Below, piece by piece: positions 1 through 7,554 of a stretch of 64,000 bases of DNA. This stretch comes from Christensenellaceae bacterium Phil1 (GTDB taxonomy: Bacteria > Bacillota > Clostridia > Christensenellales > CAG-138). Numbering within the stretch: the stretch's first letter is position 1; every line of letters starts with the position of its first letter. The stretch is taken from NCBI GenBank assembly GCA_001940855.1, contig MSGS01000031.1:2273-66272 (forward strand). The letters run 5' to 3'. The notes below the pieces were generated by a model. It made no database searches, was not told the origin of the DNA, and was given only the letters and a program-made list of their open reading frames with translations. Position numbers and translations under genes: made by a program.

Positions 1-239
1 TTCCGGGCTACCCGGTCAAAGAGCTTCGTGTCCCCGGATAGTTCAAGGCTGCTGGTGGATGTGCCGTGCGCCATGAGCTTTTTTACGGTCTGCTTGCCGT
101 GGGGCGTCTGCTTTGCCCGGTGTGCCTTGGCGATCTTGCCCCCCACCGCCCGGACAACATAGGCAAGCCCCCGGGCGGTCAGCTTTGACGCCTTCACCGA
201 TATGGCAATCGTGCGCCGGGAAATATCCTCATCTACCAG
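1..239 (-). CDS. PcfB-like conjugation protein (DUF3801), 3' end outside window
   Basis: The visible N-terminal 79 codons read VDEDISRRTIAISVKASKL and later GKQTVKKLM and LFDRVARK, the pattern of PcfB/DUF3801 proteins found next to the coupling protein in Gram-positive conjugative elements. The family is needed for plasmid or ICE transfer and is thought to work with the VirD4-like coupling protein. The start is uncertain: the reading frame is closed by a TGA just upstream, and the only candidates before the conserved part are CTG (237-239) or GTA; a GGAGG lies about 9 bases upstream of that CTG. An ATG at 246 is in another frame and stops after five codons. Either a rare CTG start is used or a frameshift has occurred. 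It follows ardA on the same strand. The family call is from memory of the motif pattern. Confidence 0.7.
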   Translation of the reverse strand, partial: MVDEDISRRTIAISVKASKLTARGLAYVVRAVGGKIAKAHRAKQTPHGKQTVKKLMAHGTSTSSLELSGDTKLFDRVAR

Positions 240-269
240 CCGTCATCGCCTCCTCTCTGATAGAATTAT

Positions 270-296
270 GACCTTGGGACAAGTTGTCCCAAGGTC
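270..296. repeat. Perfect inverted repeat overlapping the ardA stop codon
   Basis: The stem GACCTTGGGAC is repeated as its reverse complement with a 5-base centre, which extends the pairing to 13 bp per arm. The TGA stop of ardA forms the edge of the repeat. The same 11-base stem recurs at 2445-2471, placed in the same way over the stop codon of the parB-like gene. In RNA it would form a strong hairpin just before the next ribosome binding site. No clear U-tract follows, so an attenuating or RNA-stabilising hairpin fits better than a full terminator. Confidence 0.75.
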
Positions 297-1002
297 AGCG
301 TTCATCATGCTCCTTTCTCGGGTGCAGGCGTTCGACCTCCAAAGAGGAACGGTCTATGACCTCCTTGTAGGCCGCCATCTGCTCCCGGATATTCAACTTG
401 GGGTACGCAAAAATGCGGTGTTCGGCGGGAATGTCCTCGATGCCGTGGTACACCTCCTTGAAATCGCCGCTGCGGGTCAGATAGCCCGTGGGGGCGAAGT
501 GGCCGCCCTCGTTGATCCGCATATCCCGCCCATAGGCTTCAAAATCGAAGTAGGGCAGCACATTATCCGGCACATCCAACAGCTCCATGTCCTCCACATA
601 GATGCGCCCCAGCGTTTCATCATCGGTCACGCCGGGGTGCAGCTCGTAGCAGTCCAGATTGTGAACAAGGTTGATGATGTCCGCCACGCTGGAAGTATGG
701 TCGCCCTCGTTGAGCGCGGCCTCCAGCGTTTCGATCTCGTCGCTGTCCAGTTCGGAAATGAGATGCGCCAGATGGTTCAGCTCGTCCAAGTTTTCATACT
801 CGGTGAGATAGTCGTATAAGCCCATCACATCGCCGTCAAAGGCGGTGATGAAAAACTCCTCATACCGCACACCGTCCACGCCGATGTTCTTCAGAAGCGA
901 TTGCACCTCCTTCGTGGTGGCCGGAAATTTCAGCGTTTCGCCCACAAGCTGCCCCTCGGCGTATTTGCCGAGGTTGGTGATGTAGGCTTCAAATACCGTC
1001 AT
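295..1002 (-). CDS. ardA: ArdA-type antirestriction protein
   Basis: The product is a 235-residue acidic protein beginning MTVFEAYITNLGKYAEG, the typical ArdA opening, and rich in Asp and Glu throughout. ArdA proteins are double-stranded DNA mimics that bind type I restriction-modification enzymes and protect incoming DNA during conjugation. I chose ATG at 1002 because AAAGGAGG sits about six bases upstream; the in-frame GTG at 1008 would lie inside that site. The intact reading frame of the upstream methyltransferase would have overlapped this start by 14 bases, a sign of translational coupling before the stop mutation. Context is the accessory block of an integrative conjugative element. 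The call is confident from N-terminal motif, composition, length and neighbours. Confidence 0.88.
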   Translation of the reverse strand: MTVFEAYITNLGKYAEGQLVGETLKFPATTKEVQSLLKNIGVDGVRYEEFFITAFDGDVMGLYDYLTEYENLDELNHLAHLISELDSDEIETLEAALNEGDHTSSVADIINLVHNLDCYELHPGVTDDETLGRIYVEDMELLDVPDNVLPYFDFEAYGRDMRINEGGHFAPTGYLTRSGDFKEVYHGIEDIPAEHRIFAYPKLNIREQMAAYKEVIDRSSLEVERLHPRKEHDER

Positions 1003-1126
1003 TTGCACCTCCTTTTGTCAGCGCCTCTGCGATTCCCGCCATGATGTACTCGGCACAGGGCAGCGCGATGGCGTTTCCCAACGCCCGGTAACGGTGGGAG
1101 GATAGAATTTCCTCGCCGTCAGCGCC

Positions 1127-2074
1127 TTATTTTGTCCAGCCCTCCGGCAGCCCCATGAGCCGCTCACATTCCGTTTCCGTGGGAAAGCGGACGCAGCCCC
1201 TGGCGGGATCGTCCTCATACCAAAAGGCAAAGGGTGTAACACCGCCCGCTAACAGAGTGGGAAAAGGGTCAGTTGGCAGTCCAAAGCTGTTTCGGAACGC
1301 TGTTTCCGTCCGCTCCTTGGCGGACGCCCGCATACGGAAGCATTGAAAGGGTCGGGTGACTGGTATGCGCCGCCCTGCTTCAATAAAAGAGCCTCGATCT
1401 CCGCAGGCGGCGGGCAGCCCGCGATCTCCGCCAGATGCAGAAAGTGACTGCATTGTGCGGGGCTTAAAAAGTATTTCGTGGGAGCGCCGTCCTCCAAAGT
1501 CTGCCACAAGAAAGATACGCTGCCGTCGTGCCAGCCGGGGGCTTGCCCAATACTGGGCGTCCATGAGCCGCCAAGAGAGGTCAGGCGTTCGCCCTCGCAC
1601 CATTCCGGCTCCTGCCCATCTTCCAGAAGCAGGCATTGAAACATCGGTGTCTGTGAAAGCGGATAGGACGGCTCTAAAATCCATCCGGTCATTTGATGAA
1701 AACGCTCCCATGACATTTTCCCAAACAGTGATTGCTGGAAATAGACCATTTGTCGCCTCCCTCATTTCACGGATAATGCGGATAGCTTGAAAGAACAGGC
1801 TGGACTTTTCTCCCGCAAGCTCCTTGCGGTTGCCGATCTGCGAGAGATTTTGACACGGTGAGCCAAAGGTGATGATATGGACGGGCGGGAGATCCCGCCC
1901 GTCCAGCTTTGTCACATCCCCCAAGTGAACCATATCGGGAAAGTGGTGCTTGGTGATGGAGATAGGGGCTTTTTCGATCTCGCTTGCCCATATCGGCTCA
2001 ATGCCGCAGCGCACCGCTGCCAGCGGGAACACGCCGATCCCATCGAACAGGCTCCCCAGCCGGAGCGCCGTCAT
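1127..2074 (-). CDS. DNA (cytosine-5) methyltransferase, truncated by in-frame TAA
   Basis: Residues 10-14 FDGIG (AdoMet-binding motif I), 72-75 SPCQ with catalytic Cys74 (motif IV), 119-121 ENV (motif VI) and a QRIFLV stretch (motif VIII) identify a Dcm-like C5 methyltransferase. FPTLLAGG and ERLMGLPEGW lie near the end. The frame then meets TAA at 1127-1129, but the same frame stays open to a TGA at 989-991 and encodes 45 more residues including RALGNAIALP, the conserved motif X that completes the AdoMet pocket. In relatives a Tyr is expected at the stop, so one base change explains it. The truncated product (315 residues) is probably inactive. Start ATG 2074 directly follows the upstream stop; ATG 2095 is an alternative. 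In elements of this kind the enzyme likely protects against host restriction. Confidence 0.88.
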   Translation of the reverse strand: MTALRLGSLFDGIGVFPLAAVRCGIEPIWASEIEKAPISITKHHFPDMVHLGDVTKLDGRDLPPVHIITFGSPCQNLSQIGNRKELAGEKSSLFFQAIRIIREMREATNGLFPAITVWENVMGAFSSNDRMDFRAVLSAFTDTDVSMPASGRWAGAGMVRGRTPDLSWRLMDAQYWASPRLARRQRIFLVADFGGRRSHEILFKPRTMQSLSASGGDRGLPAACGDRGSFIEAGRRIPVTRPFQCFRMRASAKERTETAFRNSFGLPTDPFPTLLAGGVTPFAFWYEDDPARGCVRFPTETECERLMGLPEGWTK

Positions 2075-2075
2075 C

Positions 2076-2417
2076 TTATCTGCGCCCCTGTCCATTGACG
2101 GTCAAAATGCCCTCAAGGGTGGTGGCGGTGATCCCCAGCCGCTGGGCAACGGCAATGTCGTTCTTCATAGCCTCGGTGACGGTATGACCGCACACCACCA
2201 GCACATGAGAACGGCGGAGCAGGTCACGCCCCATGTCGATGCCGCTCTTATGCTCCTCGGGAACAGCGTCATTAAGGAAAAGGGGCTGATAGAGCGTCGG
2301 GCAGATAGGCGAAAAGCCTGCCTCATATACCGTGCGGCAATACTGCGCCGCCAGCTTTGCGTTTTCGTGATCGCTGCCGCACCACGCGGCGGTAACATAT
2401 GCGAGGGGTCGTTTCAT
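2076..2417 (-). CDS. DUF4406-like (nucleoside deoxyribosyltransferase-fold) element protein
   Basis: The 113-residue product begins MKRPLAYVTAAWCGSD and contains GIDMGRDLLRRSHVLVVCG, a pattern seen in small proteins of Gram-positive conjugative elements that resemble nucleoside 2-deoxyribosyltransferases (DUF4406 or a close relative). No experimental function is known to me. ATG 2417 is preferred because AATGGAGG lies about eight bases upstream; an ATG at 2432 overlaps that site. Its stop codon is followed at once by the start of the methyltransferase gene, and it lies just downstream of the parB-like gene, so the four genes look like one leftward operon. A role in modifying nucleotides or DNA is only a guess from the fold. 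Confidence 0.6.
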   Translation of the reverse strand: MKRPLAYVTAAWCGSDHENAKLAAQYCRTVYEAGFSPICPTLYQPLFLNDAVPEEHKSGIDMGRDLLRRSHVLVVCGHTVTEAMKNDIAVAQRLGITATTLEGILTVNGQGRR

Positions 2418-2444
2418 CTCAAAAACCTCCATTCATAAACGAAA

Positions 2445-2471
2445 GACCTTGGGACAAAAAGTCCCAAGGTC
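2445..2471. repeat. Inverted repeat overlapping the parB-like stop codon
   Basis: GACCTTGGGAC is followed by AAAAA and then its reverse complement, giving an 11-bp perfect stem with a five-base loop. The TGA stop codon of the parB-like gene forms one edge. The stem is identical to that at 270-296. On the minus strand the loop is all T and the stem is followed by TTTCG, so partial termination is possible, but the next gene starts only about 30 bases later. Confidence 0.75.
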
Positions 2472-3951
2472 ACTTTTCCAAATCGGCTTTCTTTTCGGGC
2501 TTGCCCAGTTCGGGCGGTTGCTTGGCCTTCCAGTCATCCAGCAGAGAAATGATCTTGTCTTTCATTTCCCTTGGGGACTTGTCCTTGCCAAAATACTTTT
2601 CCAGTTCCGCACTATTGATGATCACCTTGTCTACCTCCTTTTTCTCCTGCGACAGAATCCCGTCGATCACATCGCCGTTGAGCTTGCCGTCCTTGTCCAG
2701 CTCCCGCATTTTCTGTGCCTGCGACAGCGAGGGCGAGGACTGCTGCCCCTCGATGGACACGGCGATATACCTCTGATTTTTGGGACGGATGAATGAGATC
2801 TCCACTGCCGGGGTGAACGCCAGTCTTTTCTCGTCCACCATTTTCTGCAAATCCGGCACAAGCTCGGTCAGGCGGATATACCGCTGCACCTGCTTGTAGT
2901 TCATGCCGTTGCGATCTCCCACGACCTGCGTGGAGCGTTTTCCGGTGTCCTTGTCCTCCTCGCCGGGGCGGGAGCCTTGGTGCTTGATAGCCTCCACCTG
3001 CATTTTGAGCGACTGTGCCTTTTCCGTGGGCAAAATACGCTCACGGTGGCGGAGGTTGTCATCCGTCATGGCAAGGATGGCTTCATCGTCCGTCATGTTG
3101 CGGACGATACACGGCATATTCGCAAATCCGGCAAGTTCGCTTGCCCGCTGGCGGCGGTGGCCTGCGATGATCTCATAGCCGCCATCCTCACGGGGACGCA
3201 CCAGCGCGGGCTGATTGACGCTCGCCGCCTTGACCGACTCCACAAGCCCCTGCATCTCCGCATCGTCCCGGACACCAAAGGGATGATTTTTGAACGGGTG
3301 CAGGTCAGACAGGTTGAGATAGACGATCTCCTCTTTTTCGGCACGGGTGGCATCACGGGGCGCAGACGGCTCCGGCGTGACCTCCGCACCAGCGGGAGCG
3401 CCGCCCTTATCCACGGCAGGCTTCTCCGGGATGGGCTTGCTTTGGGGCTTTTTGTCCCGAGGTTTGGACGGCTTGGCCTTACCGGGAGCGGCCTTGCCAT
3501 CCTTGGACGGGCGACCTCTGCCGGGCTTGGCGGCCTTGTCCTTTTCCGTGGGCGGCTTCTGCTTGACCGCCTTTTTCTCCTCCTTGGCCGCCTCGTCACG
3601 GGCGGCGGCAATATCCACTACCTTGCCGGAATGTGCCGGGGCGGGTGCATCCTTGCCGGGAGTGGGCGGCTGCTCCTGTTCCTTTTCAGCCTTGGGGGCT
3701 TCGGGCGCGGCAGGCTCCTCCATCTCGGCGTGGGTAACAGCGTCGGCGGGATCAGGCACGGCCTCGCCCATCTCAAAGAGTGCTGCCTGCCCCTCGTGTT
3801 CCAAAATGAGCTGTTCCTCTACGGTCAGCTCCTCCGGCCCCAGCGGGGCGGGAGCGGTGGTGTCGGCCAGATCGGGAGCGGGGTTGGGCTGCTCCGGGGT
3901 CTCGGTGGGAGTACCCACATCGGGGCTGATGGTCTTTTTATCGTCTGCCAC
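2470..3951 (-). CDS. ParB/RepB/Spo0J-family partition protein of conjugative element
   Basis: The 493-residue protein has a long low-complexity N-terminal half rich in Pro, Glu, Ala and Lys (about residues 1-200). A ParB-type nuclease-fold domain follows with VYLNLSDLHPFKNHP near residue 205 and IIAGHRRQRASELAG near 260, then a helix-turn-helix region around VVGDRNGMNYKQVQRYIRL. ParB-family proteins bind parS-like sites and help segregate or maintain DNA; on elements they may act in maintenance of the excised circle. GTG at 3951 is chosen because AAAGGAGG lies seven bases upstream; the frame extends further upstream only through a hairpin-rich leader. No parA-like gene is visible next to it. 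It heads the leftward operon of the element. Confidence 0.85.
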   Translation of the reverse strand: MADDKKTISPDVGTPTETPEQPNPAPDLADTTAPAPLGPEELTVEEQLILEHEGQAALFEMGEAVPDPADAVTHAEMEEPAAPEAPKAEKEQEQPPTPGKDAPAPAHSGKVVDIAAARDEAAKEEKKAVKQKPPTEKDKAAKPGRGRPSKDGKAAPGKAKPSKPRDKKPQSKPIPEKPAVDKGGAPAGAEVTPEPSAPRDATRAEKEEIVYLNLSDLHPFKNHPFGVRDDAEMQGLVESVKAASVNQPALVRPREDGGYEIIAGHRRQRASELAGFANMPCIVRNMTDDEAILAMTDDNLRHRERILPTEKAQSLKMQVEAIKHQGSRPGEEDKDTGKRSTQVVGDRNGMNYKQVQRYIRLTELVPDLQKMVDEKRLAFTPAVEISFIRPKNQRYIAVSIEGQQSSPSLSQAQKMRELDKDGKLNGDVIDGILSQEKKEVDKVIINSAELEKYFGKDKSPREMKDKIISLLDDWKAKQPPELGKPEKKADLEK

Positions 3952-3976
3952 TAAAAAACCTCCTTTGTTGTGAAAT

Positions 3977-4002
3977 GAAAAAAGCCAGCCCGATGGCTGG
4001 CA
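3977..4002 (-). terminator. Rho-independent terminator upstream of the parB-like gene
   Basis: On the minus strand GCCAGCC, a four-base loop and GGCTGGC are followed by six T residues. It lies 26 bases before the parB-like start codon, so it would stop transcripts entering from upstream or act as an attenuator in the leader. Confidence 0.7.
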
Positions 4003-4040
4003 GCAGATAGGGTATCTCCTCCTTTCAGATTGTGGTATAT

Positions 4041-4072
4041 GAAAACGCCGCCCGTTGTCCCGTTTGGCGGCG
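4041..4072 (-). terminator. Second hairpin in the parB leader
   Basis: On the minus strand CGCCGCC pairs with GGCGGCG across a 13-base loop, followed by TTTTC. Together with the terminator at 3977-4002 it makes a tandem hairpin leader upstream of the parB-like gene. Confidence 0.45.
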
Positions 4073-4100
4073 TAATTCTTATGACTAAAACGGTTGGTAA

Positions 4101-4128
4101 TTGCGTTCTGCAAAATAATCGCTATAAT
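4101..4128 (+). promoter_or_regulatory. Candidate promoter of the orphan gene
   Basis: TTGCGT and TATAAT are separated by 16 bases, and the -10 box lies 40 bases before the start codon at 4168. The match to the housekeeping sigma consensus is good at -10 and moderate at -35. Confidence 0.5.
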
Positions 4129-4167
4129 AATAGATAGAAATACATTTCCGCAGAAATGAGGAATTTT

Positions 4168-5151
4168 ATGATACTTAAAGGGATCGCTGCAACAACTCAA
4201 GTCGATGCTCATAACACTCGAATCGCTTTAGAGGCTCTTGAAAGTGCTGCTGAAACTGTTGTTCATGGAAAATATGTACCGAGTGTTGGAGTTGAACATG
4301 ATCCTACCATCATACCCATCGGTAAAATAGTCAACGCCTATGTTGAAAAGATAAACGACACTGACTATGGGCTGTACTGTGAACAAGATATGTTTTCTGT
4401 TTACCCTATGGAGCATGATGGCGTAAAATTTGTTATGCAGAAAAGCCTTGTCGATGACAGACCGCTGGCAACCTCCTTTTTAGAACAGCGAGAGAAACTG
4501 CTCGTCCAAACTGACTTCGTTAATTTCAAATCCCGGGAGGATGCAGCGACCTATTTGAAAGAGTTATCTGACGAATACGATATTGAAACAGGTTATTGCG
4601 GAAGAAAGTCTGCCATACCTGATCCGGAATTAGCCTTTCAATTTTTAGAAGCGACAGTAAAGGGGTTGTTTATTTATTTAGCAAGTAAGCCCGTAATCGA
4701 AAAAGTAGGCAACCACATAATCGACCACGCTTTATCCGAGTTTGATGGTTTATATGCTTTTGTCAAAAAGGCCATCATTTCAGCGGCCAAGAGGTTTGTT
4801 CCGGCCAATAGACCAGTAACCTATGTGTTTACTGGAAAATATGAATTTGTGATTGAGTTAGTTGTTCAAACCACAAATCCTAATATAGCAATAGAAGCTA
4901 TTTGTGAAGAAAAGCTAATTAGTGTAGTTAGCGAAATTGAAAACCTTAAAAAACATTTTTCAAGTTTTGTCAAAATCCAGTTGGTATATAATACGGAAAC
5001 AGGACAATGGGAGTTTAACTATATAGCAACAGAAAAAGGCGAAGTTATCGGCACAGAAAAATCCTATAAGAAATCTTTGAAAAAAATAGAACTTGCCTTC
5101 CCCGAAAACAAAGATGCCACTAAGATGGCAGCATCTATTGATTTTCATTGA
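4168..5151 (+). CDS. Hypothetical protein, low-GC orphan at element edge
   Basis: I do not recognise this 327-residue protein. It starts MILKGIAATTQVDAHNTR, has a motif-like stretch GVEHDPTIIPIGK near residue 45, and a mixed alpha/beta composition. There is no signal peptide; the stretch around GLFIYLASKP is only mildly hydrophobic. ATG 4168 is preferred over 4156 because GAGGA lies just upstream of it. The gene is visibly more A+T rich than both the conjugative-element genes on its left and the chromosomal genes on its right, and it is transcribed away from the element. That suggests an independently acquired cargo gene. The HDPTIIPIGK patch faintly recalls the start of phage prohead-protease-like domains, but I would not assign function from it. 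A strong terminator follows at 5241. Confidence 0.75.
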   Translation: MILKGIAATTQVDAHNTRIALEALESAAETVVHGKYVPSVGVEHDPTIIPIGKIVNAYVEKINDTDYGLYCEQDMFSVYPMEHDGVKFVMQKSLVDDRPLATSFLEQREKLLVQTDFVNFKSREDAATYLKELSDEYDIETGYCGRKSAIPDPELAFQFLEATVKGLFIYLASKPVIEKVGNHIIDHALSEFDGLYAFVKKAIISAAKRFVPANRPVTYVFTGKYEFVIELVVQTTNPNIAIEAICEEKLISVVSEIENLKKHFSSFVKIQLVYNTETGQWEFNYIATEKGEVIGTEKSYKKSLKKIELAFPENKDATKMAASIDFH

Positions 5152-5240
5152 TTGTTGGATAAAACCTCTTGCTTGCTGCGCTAAAACCATTGATATGACT
5201 TGGTTTTTCCAGATCCCATAATTACACTCCGACCAAACAG

Positions 5241-5269
5241 AAAAGCCTATGCACAGCATGGGCTTTTTT
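5241..5269. terminator. Rho-independent terminator
   Basis: AAAAGCCTATGC, a short loop and GCATGGGCTTTTTT form a stem with one wobble pair and flanking A and T tracts, so it can work in both directions. It separates the orphan gene from the MazG-like gene. Confidence 0.75.
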
Positions 5270-5339
5270 CTATTGCTCCTTCTGTATACATTGGGGTAAA
5301 ATGATTCATATAGATTTGAATTTAGGAGACGTGTACCTT

Positions 5340-5666
5340 ATGGCAGACTTCAGCATAAACGAAATGCAGGAAATGCAGAGGGCTTTACAGGATAAATACA
5401 AGCATAAATGGGAGCCTATATGCCCAGAAGTGGGGCAGAGCAAGCTGCTGTGGATGGTTGGCGAAATAGGCGAAGTGATAGACATAGTAAAAAAGCATGG
5501 CGGGGCAAATGCAGCGGCAACGGAAGAACTGAGAAAAGATCTGGTTGAGGAAATGGCGGATGTTCTGATGTATTATAATGACGTTATGTTATGCTATGGC
5601 ATCGGCGCTGAAGAGCTGAAACAAGCATATACAGAAAAGTTTGAGAAAAATATGAAACGCTGGTAA
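5340..5666 (+). CDS. MazG-like nucleotide pyrophosphohydrolase
   Basis: The 108-residue product contains LLWMVGEIGEVIDIVKKHG and LRKDLVEEMADVLMYYNDV, giving the EExxE...ExxD metal-binding pattern of the all-alpha MazG superfamily (here GEIGEV and EEMADV). Such enzymes hydrolyse nucleoside triphosphates to monophosphate and pyrophosphate and often clear damaged or non-canonical nucleotides. ATG 5340 is chosen over 5301 because AGGAG lies about 11 bases upstream and the family similarity starts after it. Single-domain size matches the short MazG-like group rather than two-domain MazG. The gene stands alone between two terminators. The substrate cannot be told from sequence. Confidence 0.8.
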   Translation: MADFSINEMQEMQRALQDKYKHKWEPICPEVGQSKLLWMVGEIGEVIDIVKKHGGANAAATEELRKDLVEEMADVLMYYNDVMLCYGIGAEELKQAYTEKFEKNMKRW

Positions 5667-5691
5667 ACGGTTCCAATAAACCTATACAACA

Positions 5692-5720
5692 AAAAAGCAC
5701 TTCAGATGAAGTGCTTTTTG
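5692..5720. terminator. Bidirectional terminator between convergent genes
   Basis: AAAAAGCACTTC, the loop AGAT and GAAGTGCTTTTT make a 12-bp perfect stem with A and T tracts on both sides. It lies between the convergent MazG-like and beta-propeller genes. Confidence 0.85.
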
Positions 5721-5733
5721 CTTATGTCTTGTA

Positions 5734-7554
5734 TTACTTTATCTTTACGCCGTATATCTTCTGGCCGCGGGTGCCTACCACAACGGTGTTTTCAAACACG
5801 GCGGGAGAGGCTTCTACATTCGAACCGAGCGAGAATTCATAAAGTATGGTTCCGGTCTGCCCGTCAACAAGGTGCATATAGCCGGAGGAGTTGCACTGTA
5901 TCAGGTATCCGTTGCCGTTCTGGTCATATACCACAACGGGGCTTGACCACGGATAACCCGCGAAGTTGCATTCCCACACAACGTGACCGTCGGTCTTAGA
6001 GAAGGCGACAAGCTTGCCGCGGTGGCCGTCCGTCATGGCTACGGGAGCGAATACAAGCTCGCTCAGGCTGCCCTTGCCTATTGCGAAGGAGCCCTGTACG
6101 CCGCCGGATACGCCGGATACGGTCTGGCAGGAATAATCCGTGTTCTTCCAAACTATGCGGCCCGTTTCGGCATCCAGCTTCCATATGGGTATGGACGCCT
6201 TTGCATTCGTATCCGCGCGCCAGCCGCCATGGAAGGAGGTGGAGCAGTATACGTAAGGATGCCCGTTTTCAAGCTCCAGCACGGCCGTGCAGTTTGTGTC
6301 GTCCAGCACGTCCTGAACCCACACCAGTTCAAGTGTATTCAGGTTTATGCACATCATGTGGCCGCCGTTATCGCTTACGATAAGGTGTCCGCGCCAGATT
6401 ATCGCGCTGTCCTCCATGCCGAACCACCAGCCCTTTGAACCGTCCACCGTGGCGGTGCTGTTGTTGCGCGAGCCCTTATAGCGCCACTTTACAACTTCGG
6501 GAGCTACGGATATCGTGCCGGCGTTTACATCATAATTGGTGTTAAGCTTTATCATGTACAGTATGCCGTTTTCGCCGGGGTAAATGAGAGTATCAGTCTC
6601 GGCATCAACGAGGGCGGAGCTGTCGAAATACGAAAGCTTACCCCTCAGGCTGAAGCTATCCTTGCTTCCGAATTCATACAGTACCTTGCCGTCTATAAGG
6701 CTGATTATGGATGCATGGGAAGAACCCTCGCCGTAGTCCTTACTGTCGTCGCCGGAGCCGAGATACATCAGCGGATAGCCGCGCGGATCGAGCGCGCCCG
6801 CACCCTTGAAGGGATAGCGGCCCATGTTGATGGGGTCGCGCGTGCGTTCGCCGGTGTCAAGGTCAAGGAAGTAAATATGCCCGTCCATAGTGGCATATAT
6901 TACTTCAACAAGATCGGTCTTATTCTTGGCGGAATCGTAAAGGTTCATTATGCGCTTGGTTTCTTCCGGCCAGCGGACGATGAGCGGCTGTCCCGTCCAG
7001 CCGGAGCCTGTCCATGCGCCGGAACCGTATACCTTTGGCACGCTGCCGGTGTTCACTATCCATGCGTTGGCATCGTCCAGCGTTTTTTCAACTATTGTAG
7101 CAGTGCCGTAGGCGGGATTGTCGCGGAAATTGTTGCCGCGGAAGGTGATAATACCCTCAAGCTGGGTATAATCCCTGCCCTCGCCAAAGTCTATGGTCTG
7201 CTCCCGCTGATAGCTTGAAACTATCTCGCCATTGACCTCTATGGCTGTTTCCATGCCGAAATCGCTCGGCCGCGTGCCTTCTATTGCATACGGACTGAAC
7301 TCCGGCAGGGGAGTGGGGGTAGGCTCGGGCGTTTCGGTAGGCTCGGGTTCGGGCGTTTCGGTAGGCTCGGGCGTTTTGCTGAATATGGAATCGATCAGTC
7401 CGGGCTTTTGCGTTTCGCCGGGAACTACATTGTCGTTATCGCTTCCCGAATTGCTCAGCACAAGTATGCCAAGCGTGAGCGCGATTATGAACAATACCAG
7501 TATTATCACGAACTTTGCCGTGATTCTGCGCCTTCTGCGGCGGCGTGTTTTCAT
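5734..7554 (-). CDS. Membrane-anchored PQQ-type beta-propeller protein
   Basis: The 606-residue protein begins with an Arg-rich cytoplasmic tip, then a single transmembrane helix near residues 13-33 and a Thr/Pro/Glu repeat linker (TPEPTETPEPEPTETPEP) near 60-85. The rest shows beta-propeller blades with PQQ/YWTD-like stretches such as DGHIYFLDLDTGE, GILYMIKLNTNYD, GHMMCINLNTLELVW and GKLVAFSKTDGHVVW. Such domains are usually extracytoplasmic binding or scaffold modules; no PQQ-enzyme residues are evident, so catalysis is not implied. It is monocistronic, convergent with the MazG-like gene and divergent from htrA. The repeat linker probably lifts the propeller through the cell wall. Domain call is confident, role unknown. 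Confidence 0.8.
   Translation of the reverse strand: MKTRRRRRRRITAKFVIILVLFIIALTLGILVLSNSGSDNDNVVPGETQKPGLIDSIFSKTPEPTETPEPEPTETPEPTPTPLPEFSPYAIEGTRPSDFGMETAIEVNGEIVSSYQREQTIDFGEGRDYTQLEGIITFRGNNFRDNPAYGTATIVEKTLDDANAWIVNTGSVPKVYGSGAWTGSGWTGQPLIVRWPEETKRIMNLYDSAKNKTDLVEVIYATMDGHIYFLDLDTGERTRDPINMGRYPFKGAGALDPRGYPLMYLGSGDDSKDYGEGSSHASIISLIDGKVLYEFGSKDSFSLRGKLSYFDSSALVDAETDTLIYPGENGILYMIKLNTNYDVNAGTISVAPEVVKWRYKGSRNNSTATVDGSKGWWFGMEDSAIIWRGHLIVSDNGGHMMCINLNTLELVWVQDVLDDTNCTAVLELENGHPYVYCSTSFHGGWRADTNAKASIPIWKLDAETGRIVWKNTDYSCQTVSGVSGGVQGSFAIGKGSLSELVFAPVAMTDGHRGKLVAFSKTDGHVVWECNFAGYPWSSPVVVYDQNGNGYLIQCNSSGYMHLVDGQTGTILYEFSLGSNVEASPAVFENTVVVGTRGQKIYGVKIK

Follow-up and report, generated by a model that had tools for sequence, protein, structure and literature searches.

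An AT-rich single gene as exchangeable cargo in the terminal slot of a mobile element, with a probable role in defence

The window, that is, the whole 64,000-nucleotide stretch of DNA analysed here, carries in its left part the genes of a mobile element, encoding ArdA, a DNA methyltransferase, a DUF7768 protein and a ParB-like protein (Table 1). These genes match other elements, one of which lies in the same genome, and ArdA, ParB and the methyltransferase together indicate that the element is probably conjugative. The parB ORF had been called with 580 aa up to position 4212, which is probably over-extended, as a GTG start near 3951 appears likely from the sequence. Six right ends, when aligned, stay conserved as far as ACTCCGACCA (window base 5235) and diverge immediately after it. 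The gene studied here, with a stop codon 84 bases ahead of base 5235, is therefore located inside the element, in agreement with the earlier note, which had placed it at the element's edge.

Table 1 Features at the cargo locus and in the adjoining part of the element.
Feature	Position in window	Strand	Basis
ArdA antirestriction protein of the element	295-1008	-	profile match
C-5 cytosine DNA methyltransferase of the element	1127-2095	-	profile match
parB-like gene of the element	2470-3951	-	profile match; start read from sequence
Left slot border, conserved palindrome TATATGAAAACGCCGCCCG...GGCGGCG upstream of parB	4036-4073		alignment of elements
Putative promoter into the slot, TTGCGT, 16 nt, TATAAT	4101-4128	+	sequence, alignment of related elements
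Ribosome-binding site GAGG, 6 nt 5' of ATG 4168	4158-4161	+	sequence
Cargo gene, 327 aa	4168-5151	+	ORF and tblastn relative
Right slot border and element end, about 80 bases, ending in ACTCCGACCA	5157-5235		alignment of ends
Host intrinsic-terminator hairpin, directly outside the element	5239-5269	+	folding energy, strict terminator rule

Read from its first ATG, the ORF of the cargo gene spans 4156-5151 (331 aa). The start at 4168, which the earlier note had chosen, is preferred because of the GAGG ahead of it, and the claim of a ribosome site of its own stands with it. Searching a plasmid collection with tblastn identified a relative, the hypothetical protein WP_015026263.1 on plasmid pEMTOL01 of Emticicia oligotrophica (E=2e-25; 92% of the query aligned at 31.6% identity). 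As this relative comes from another phylum, we regard 4168-5151 as a real coding gene, and the term 'orphan' used for it previously no longer applies. Its base composition is indeed unlike that of either neighbour, with a G+C content of 0.385 compared to 0.582 for the element part (1-4073) and 0.518 for the chromosome part. When the window was read in overlapping 984-base stretches, including those that overlie the gene, 0.6% were equally AT-rich. The gene is present as a single copy in its own genome.

In line with the earlier statement that the protein resembles no known family, searches of Pfam, NCBIfam and PHROGs returned no family for it. PADLOC gave a weak match of the whole protein to the defence candidate PDC-M16A (E=0.0077, 64 profile positions), and the N-terminal piece matched the same profile at E=0.0021 over residues 58-126. 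This match covers 67 of 687 profile positions, not most of the profile, and may be due to chance.

The -10 box of the putative promoter (TATAAT, 4123-4128) is perfect and occupies the identical alignment column in 3/5 related elements, window included, suggesting that the slot itself provides the promoter. As for the gene's own promoter claimed previously, the -35 sequence at 4101-4106 matches at three of six positions, and the 4101-4128 site was not among the output of a consensus promoter scan, which found 3 promoter-like sites compared to 5.0 expected. The strong terminator described for the gene is a real hairpin, with a folding energy of -17.8 kcal/mol that 5% of 400 random 50-mers from the window reached, but it belongs to host DNA beyond the element end. 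It was found by the strict terminator rule and was absent from the consensus scan output. Further outside the element lies a MazG-like pyrophosphohydrolase gene (5301-5666; Pfam MazG, 1.6e-6) with 0.423 G+C, which is AT-rich for the chromosome part; owing to its location it was dropped as a partner of the cargo gene. No empty insertion site could be shown in genome G030, where a gene like window 5734-7554 has a different neighbour.

Comparison of related elements revealed that the gene occupies a slot between two conserved borders. The left-border palindrome is found in five elements, with G903 having its left half only, followed by an insertion sequence. The element of G400 matches the window at 3933-4073 (79%) and 5157-5235 (80%), and the ~2.95 kb in between does not match. 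The slot of G400 (L042:5751-7811) encodes a retron reverse transcriptase (PADLOC RT_VI, 8.2e-74; the best NCBIfam model stayed below its cut-off) together with an FRG-domain protein (Pfam, 8.7e-10), which may be the retron partner, and two small ORFs, one of 82 aa. In G1031 (L057:2309-5757), LmuA-like (5.2e-13) and LmuB-like (3e-23) genes recognised by PADLOC flank a 152-aa ORF and represent a diverged Lamassu-type system; none of these slot genes matched Pfam or NCBIfam, and no right border was found within the 14 kb fetched. Apart from the two ORFs of the G903 insertion sequence, presumably an IS3-type transposase, we found a 201-aa ORF in G054 (L060:3838-4443) with no family in Pfam, NCBIfam and PADLOC searches. 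We take its REACNKIIH to be a HEPN-like stretch and its neighbours to be phage-like genes. The right border is also present in two IMG/VR viral contigs, each with an AT-rich ORF (192 aa and 142 aa) between the border and an integrase-like gene that we assume to encode a tyrosine integrase. Used as a pattern, the left border had no match in viral contigs, nor any within 5 mismatches in these two.

We excluded G016, where the contig ends, and G045, which has the right border alone, next to regulator genes. Seven slots were readable: two hold PADLOC-recognised systems, two hold family-less ORFs, two are the viral-contig slots with ORFs outside the library searches, and one holds an insertion sequence. 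Cargo G+C is similarly low, with 0.385 in the window, 0.36 in G400, 0.35-0.36 in G1031 and 0.34-0.35 in the two viral contigs, compared to 0.57-0.58 for the element backbones of the window and G1031; in G400, the cargo value is hardly below that of the whole 16-kb locus (0.397). The cargo in the terminal slot of this mobile element, including the 4168-5151 gene, is thus exchangeable. The distribution across element insertions, which the earlier note had proposed to check, agrees with this, as the cargo differs between related elements and the gene is present in no sampled relative.

The type VI retron and the Lamassu-type pair share with the cargo gene the identical slot and a similarly low G+C content, but no sequence relation to it was seen, and the window cargo is a single gene. 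That cargo at this edge serves defence, as had been suggested, is supported by association, through these two sister slots and the defence genes beside the Emticicia relative described below, whereas PADLOC recognised a system in no more than 2/7 slots. The gene could be a passenger with a non-defence function, captured by chance by an AT-rich slot that is permissive. Neither the window gene nor the G054 ORF has a family above any threshold, the G903 slot is filled by an insertion sequence, and the slot ORFs of the viral contigs lie outside the library searches, all of which would fit such a passenger. With clear defence systems in two slots, and with the relative in another phylum also found among defence genes, we nevertheless consider a chance passenger unlikely.

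Comparison with the Emticicia protein, a full-length relative, showed several identical stretches, namely (331-aa numbering) EH at 47-48, S107, GRKS at 149-152 and PDPE at 155-158 (together GRKSxxPDPE), PANRP at 216-220, WEFNY at 285-289 and VIGT at 297-300. Plasmid pEMTOL01 is typed conjugative, and the relative sits there in a defence island. On its upstream side, separated from it by two ORFs, lie genes for an AbiLi-type ATPase (2.6e-101) and an RloB/AbiLii protein (3.2e-32); on its downstream side, beyond four ORFs, lie those for KwaB and KwaA of Kiwa. The KwaB domain (PF16162) matched the neighbouring Emticicia KwaB at 1.8e-38 and was absent from both the cargo protein and its relative. 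In contrast to the window gene, which stands alone, the relative is part of a larger island near HEPN-like ORFs.

Two of the ORFs near the relative, L002:8817-9365 and L002:11084-11587, contain what we take to be HEPN-like RX4-6H stretches, and a membrane-protein-like ORF separates one of the two from the relative. Pfam matches among the nearby ORFs, to HEPN_RiboL-PSP (E=4.7e-4) and pEK499_p136 (E=0.016), both fell below the curated cut-offs. The HEPN-like ORFs possibly form an undescribed system. Our literature searches found nothing tying Emticicia oligotrophica to a defense system.

The neighbourhood of the window gene also allows a different reading, in which it serves maintenance or transfer of the element, for example in entry exclusion, excision control or as an accessory to ArdA, the methyltransferase or ParB. 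The gene adjoins parB, lies within 5 kb of the ArdA and DNA methyltransferase genes and is located at the attachment end, and excision regulators are often found at attachment ends. Unlike a core function, however, the slot content is swapped wholesale among related elements, and the composition of the gene is foreign to the element. In addition, the relative is located in a defence island, with no parB among the 20 annotated features around it. We therefore view a maintenance or transfer role as conceivable but doubtful, and favour defence cargo.

To determine how widely the gene is distributed, we searched several collections. The gene was found in 1 of 103 genomes of the family and 1 of 391 genomes of the class, in each case its own genome. 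At the level of the order (337 genomes), a DNA search with window 3925-5240 recovered the borders in five other genomes and no second copy of the gene. A profile search of the phylum returned 2 of 398 genomes, the own genome and G629. The G629 match, a 259-aa protein encoded 3' of a MurB-like ORF (E=6.6e-4), presumably DivIB/FtsQ, was dismissed as chance; with the Emticicia relative (P0003) as query, phmmer gave it E=7.9e-6 in a small ORF set and 6.8e-5 in another run. Scans of contig collections, which use short exact patterns that distant relatives can escape, yielded no relatives with the cargo protein (44 pattern-matched stretches in genome contigs, 1 in viral contigs), with the two-member alignment (57 in viral and 25 in genome contigs) or with P0003 (18 in viral contigs). 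DNA patterns of the conserved stretches selected 7 + 1 viral loci, in which neither phmmer on their ORFs nor a profile search on 3/8 of them identified a relative.

By tblastn, no match was obtained against phages with the protein, and two at E 1 and 2 with its N-terminal piece. Against plasmids, the Emticicia protein was the sole accepted match. Plasmid matches of protein pieces at E 0.5-7 were judged to be chance, those in Paraburkholderia because one record is annotated treA and two carry a trehalase-like long ORF, which we assume to encode a trehalase. The cargo gene is very rare in the collections searched, and the family may be commoner around Emticicia, a group outside the genome sampling. 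As two members are all that is known of the family, its association with defence genes is thin.

By eye, we took the first 80 residues of the protein to resemble phage prohead proteases (Peptidase_S78, PF04586), and compared them with a set of Pfam PF04586 matches and with the best 80 of 202 relatives from viral contigs. With an HMM built from 51 distinct proteases (of 86), the cargo protein scored 7.7 bits (E=0.12), ahead of all others in a set of itself, its relative and 1000 shuffles, and the Emticicia relative scored -1.5 bits. Using hhalign against 29 proteases, which remained of 68 sequences after length and redundancy filters, the two-member N-terminal profile aligned over residues 15-80 (P=0.0022), a score equalled by none of 300 column shuffles. 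The cargo protein alone gave P=0.001 (0/200 shuffles), and the Emticicia relative alone a non-significant score of 10.9, which 150/200 shuffles matched. Reversal of the pair lowered its score from 24.7 to 10.0. Among 120 pieces of 41 window ORFs, that of the cargo protein was best with 29.7, the runner-up reaching 20.9. In the alignment, EHD, PIG and YGLY of the cargo protein fall opposite NHd, plG and kGLyV, which are conserved in the proteases.

Other comparisons marked the limits of this resemblance. The whole pair had no hhalign match to 6 proteases, and global alignment with the proteases gave P=0.11. Pfam S78 did not match the cargo protein, nor, at E up to 10, its N-terminal piece or that of the relative, and the XkdF-like Peptidase_S78_2 (PF14550) had no Pfam match. 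Local alignment did not extend beyond residue 80, and neither the SfGF-like motif nor the EvSvVT strand was detected. Cargo residues ~12-80 align with the first half of S78, including the conserved histidine, PIG and GLY, but no serine-strand motif was found in the protein, the ~200 residues that follow are of no recognised kind, and the gene lies between parB and the element end instead of among phage head genes. On these alignments, we consider it plausible that the N-terminal half is prohead-protease-like; the protein cannot be filed under S78.

An active S78-like protease would allow for a single-gene abortive-infection effector, in which infection triggers cleavage of self or host proteins by an H48/S107 pair. 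Both residues (331-aa numbering) are identical in the two family members, and H48 falls in the alignment column of the conserved protease histidine. The nucleophile of prohead proteases is the serine of the SfGF-like motif, and S107 lies outside such a motif, with neither the local nor the global alignment placing it at the corresponding position. For related proteases of T4-like phages, a passage of PMC5694885 describes a His-Ser-Asp triad. The most hydrophobic 19-residue segment of the cargo protein reaches 1.24 on the Kyte-Doolittle scale, so that there is no clear membrane segment by hydropathy, which counts against an effector acting through a pore; because of this low value, a membrane-pore reading of the protein was also dropped. 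We rate an active protease effector as quite improbable.

Single-sequence AlphaFold2 modelling resulted in a pLDDT of 36 for the whole protein and 60 for the C-terminal 122 residues, which, modelled alone, showed a strand-helix-strand pattern. Foldseek found nothing at E<=0.001 with either the whole or the C-terminal model, and searches of PDB sequences nothing better than E=0.16. The best VIA-align hit (Z 4.5), to an unrelated-looking periplasmic domain, was given no weight. The structure and profile searches called for by the earlier note returned no Pfam, NCBIfam or PHROGs family and no convincing match to a solved structure.

Taken together, we favour a cargo of one gene that serves defence against phages or plasmids and is carried in a fixed slot at the element's end. 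To this reading, with the capsid mechanism proposed here, we assign a probability of roughly 0.5. The company of the gene is that of defence, with its relative between AbiL and Kiwa genes and with a type VI retron and a Lamassu-type pair in sister slots, and the role as defence cargo is better supported than the proposed mechanism. The gene would be expressed from the slot's own TATAAT promoter and would protect element and host. In the mechanism, which we propose tentatively, the protein meets the maturation of phage capsids: the N-terminal ~80 residues would adopt the fold of the first half of prohead proteases, without a recognisable nucleophile motif, and might sense capsid assembly or serve as its decoy. 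A putative C-terminal alpha/beta domain (~215-305, with PANRP, WEFNY and VIGT) would be the effector or partner-binding part. That a domesticated capsid-maturation-protease fold, separated from its phage, and a new C-terminal domain have combined into a one-gene immunity that recognises or poisons capsid assembly is a speculative and rather improbable proposal, and in the literature searched we found no paper that brings a capsid protease together with defence, decoys and phage resistance.

If the gene does serve defence, its family would be one that is clearly recognised by none of the four profile libraries, and the terminal slot, recognisable by its borders, would be a place to seek more defence genes. 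If the prohead-protease fold of the N-terminal part is true, immunity of a mobile element would be tied to capsid assembly, a step common to tailed phages.

The ends of these elements share a further property. Applying the strict rule, we found an intrinsic terminator directly beyond 5/8 ends with this terminal sequence (window 5235-5269, L059, L061, L168 and L169), compared to 113 of 6400 random positions (1.8%) in the same loci, a control for which intergenic positions would be fairer (binomial tail 9e-8). A sixth end, in G016 (L058), is followed by a strong hairpin (-24.2 kcal/mol) whose loop is longer, and those of G054 and G400 have no terminator hairpin. Elements with this end therefore tend to sit just upstream of intrinsic terminators. 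In a literature search on element insertion at terminators, the terminator term was absent among the matches listed. That mobile elements and viral contigs share this end suggests that their integration systems are related. Beside the end in one viral contig (L168, reverse complement 5215-5790) and just beyond the end in G903 (L061:12571-13164), we observed ORFs of 192 and 197 aa that are alike by eye and rich in hydrophobic stretches; the ORF in G903 may be the sign of a second, tandem element.
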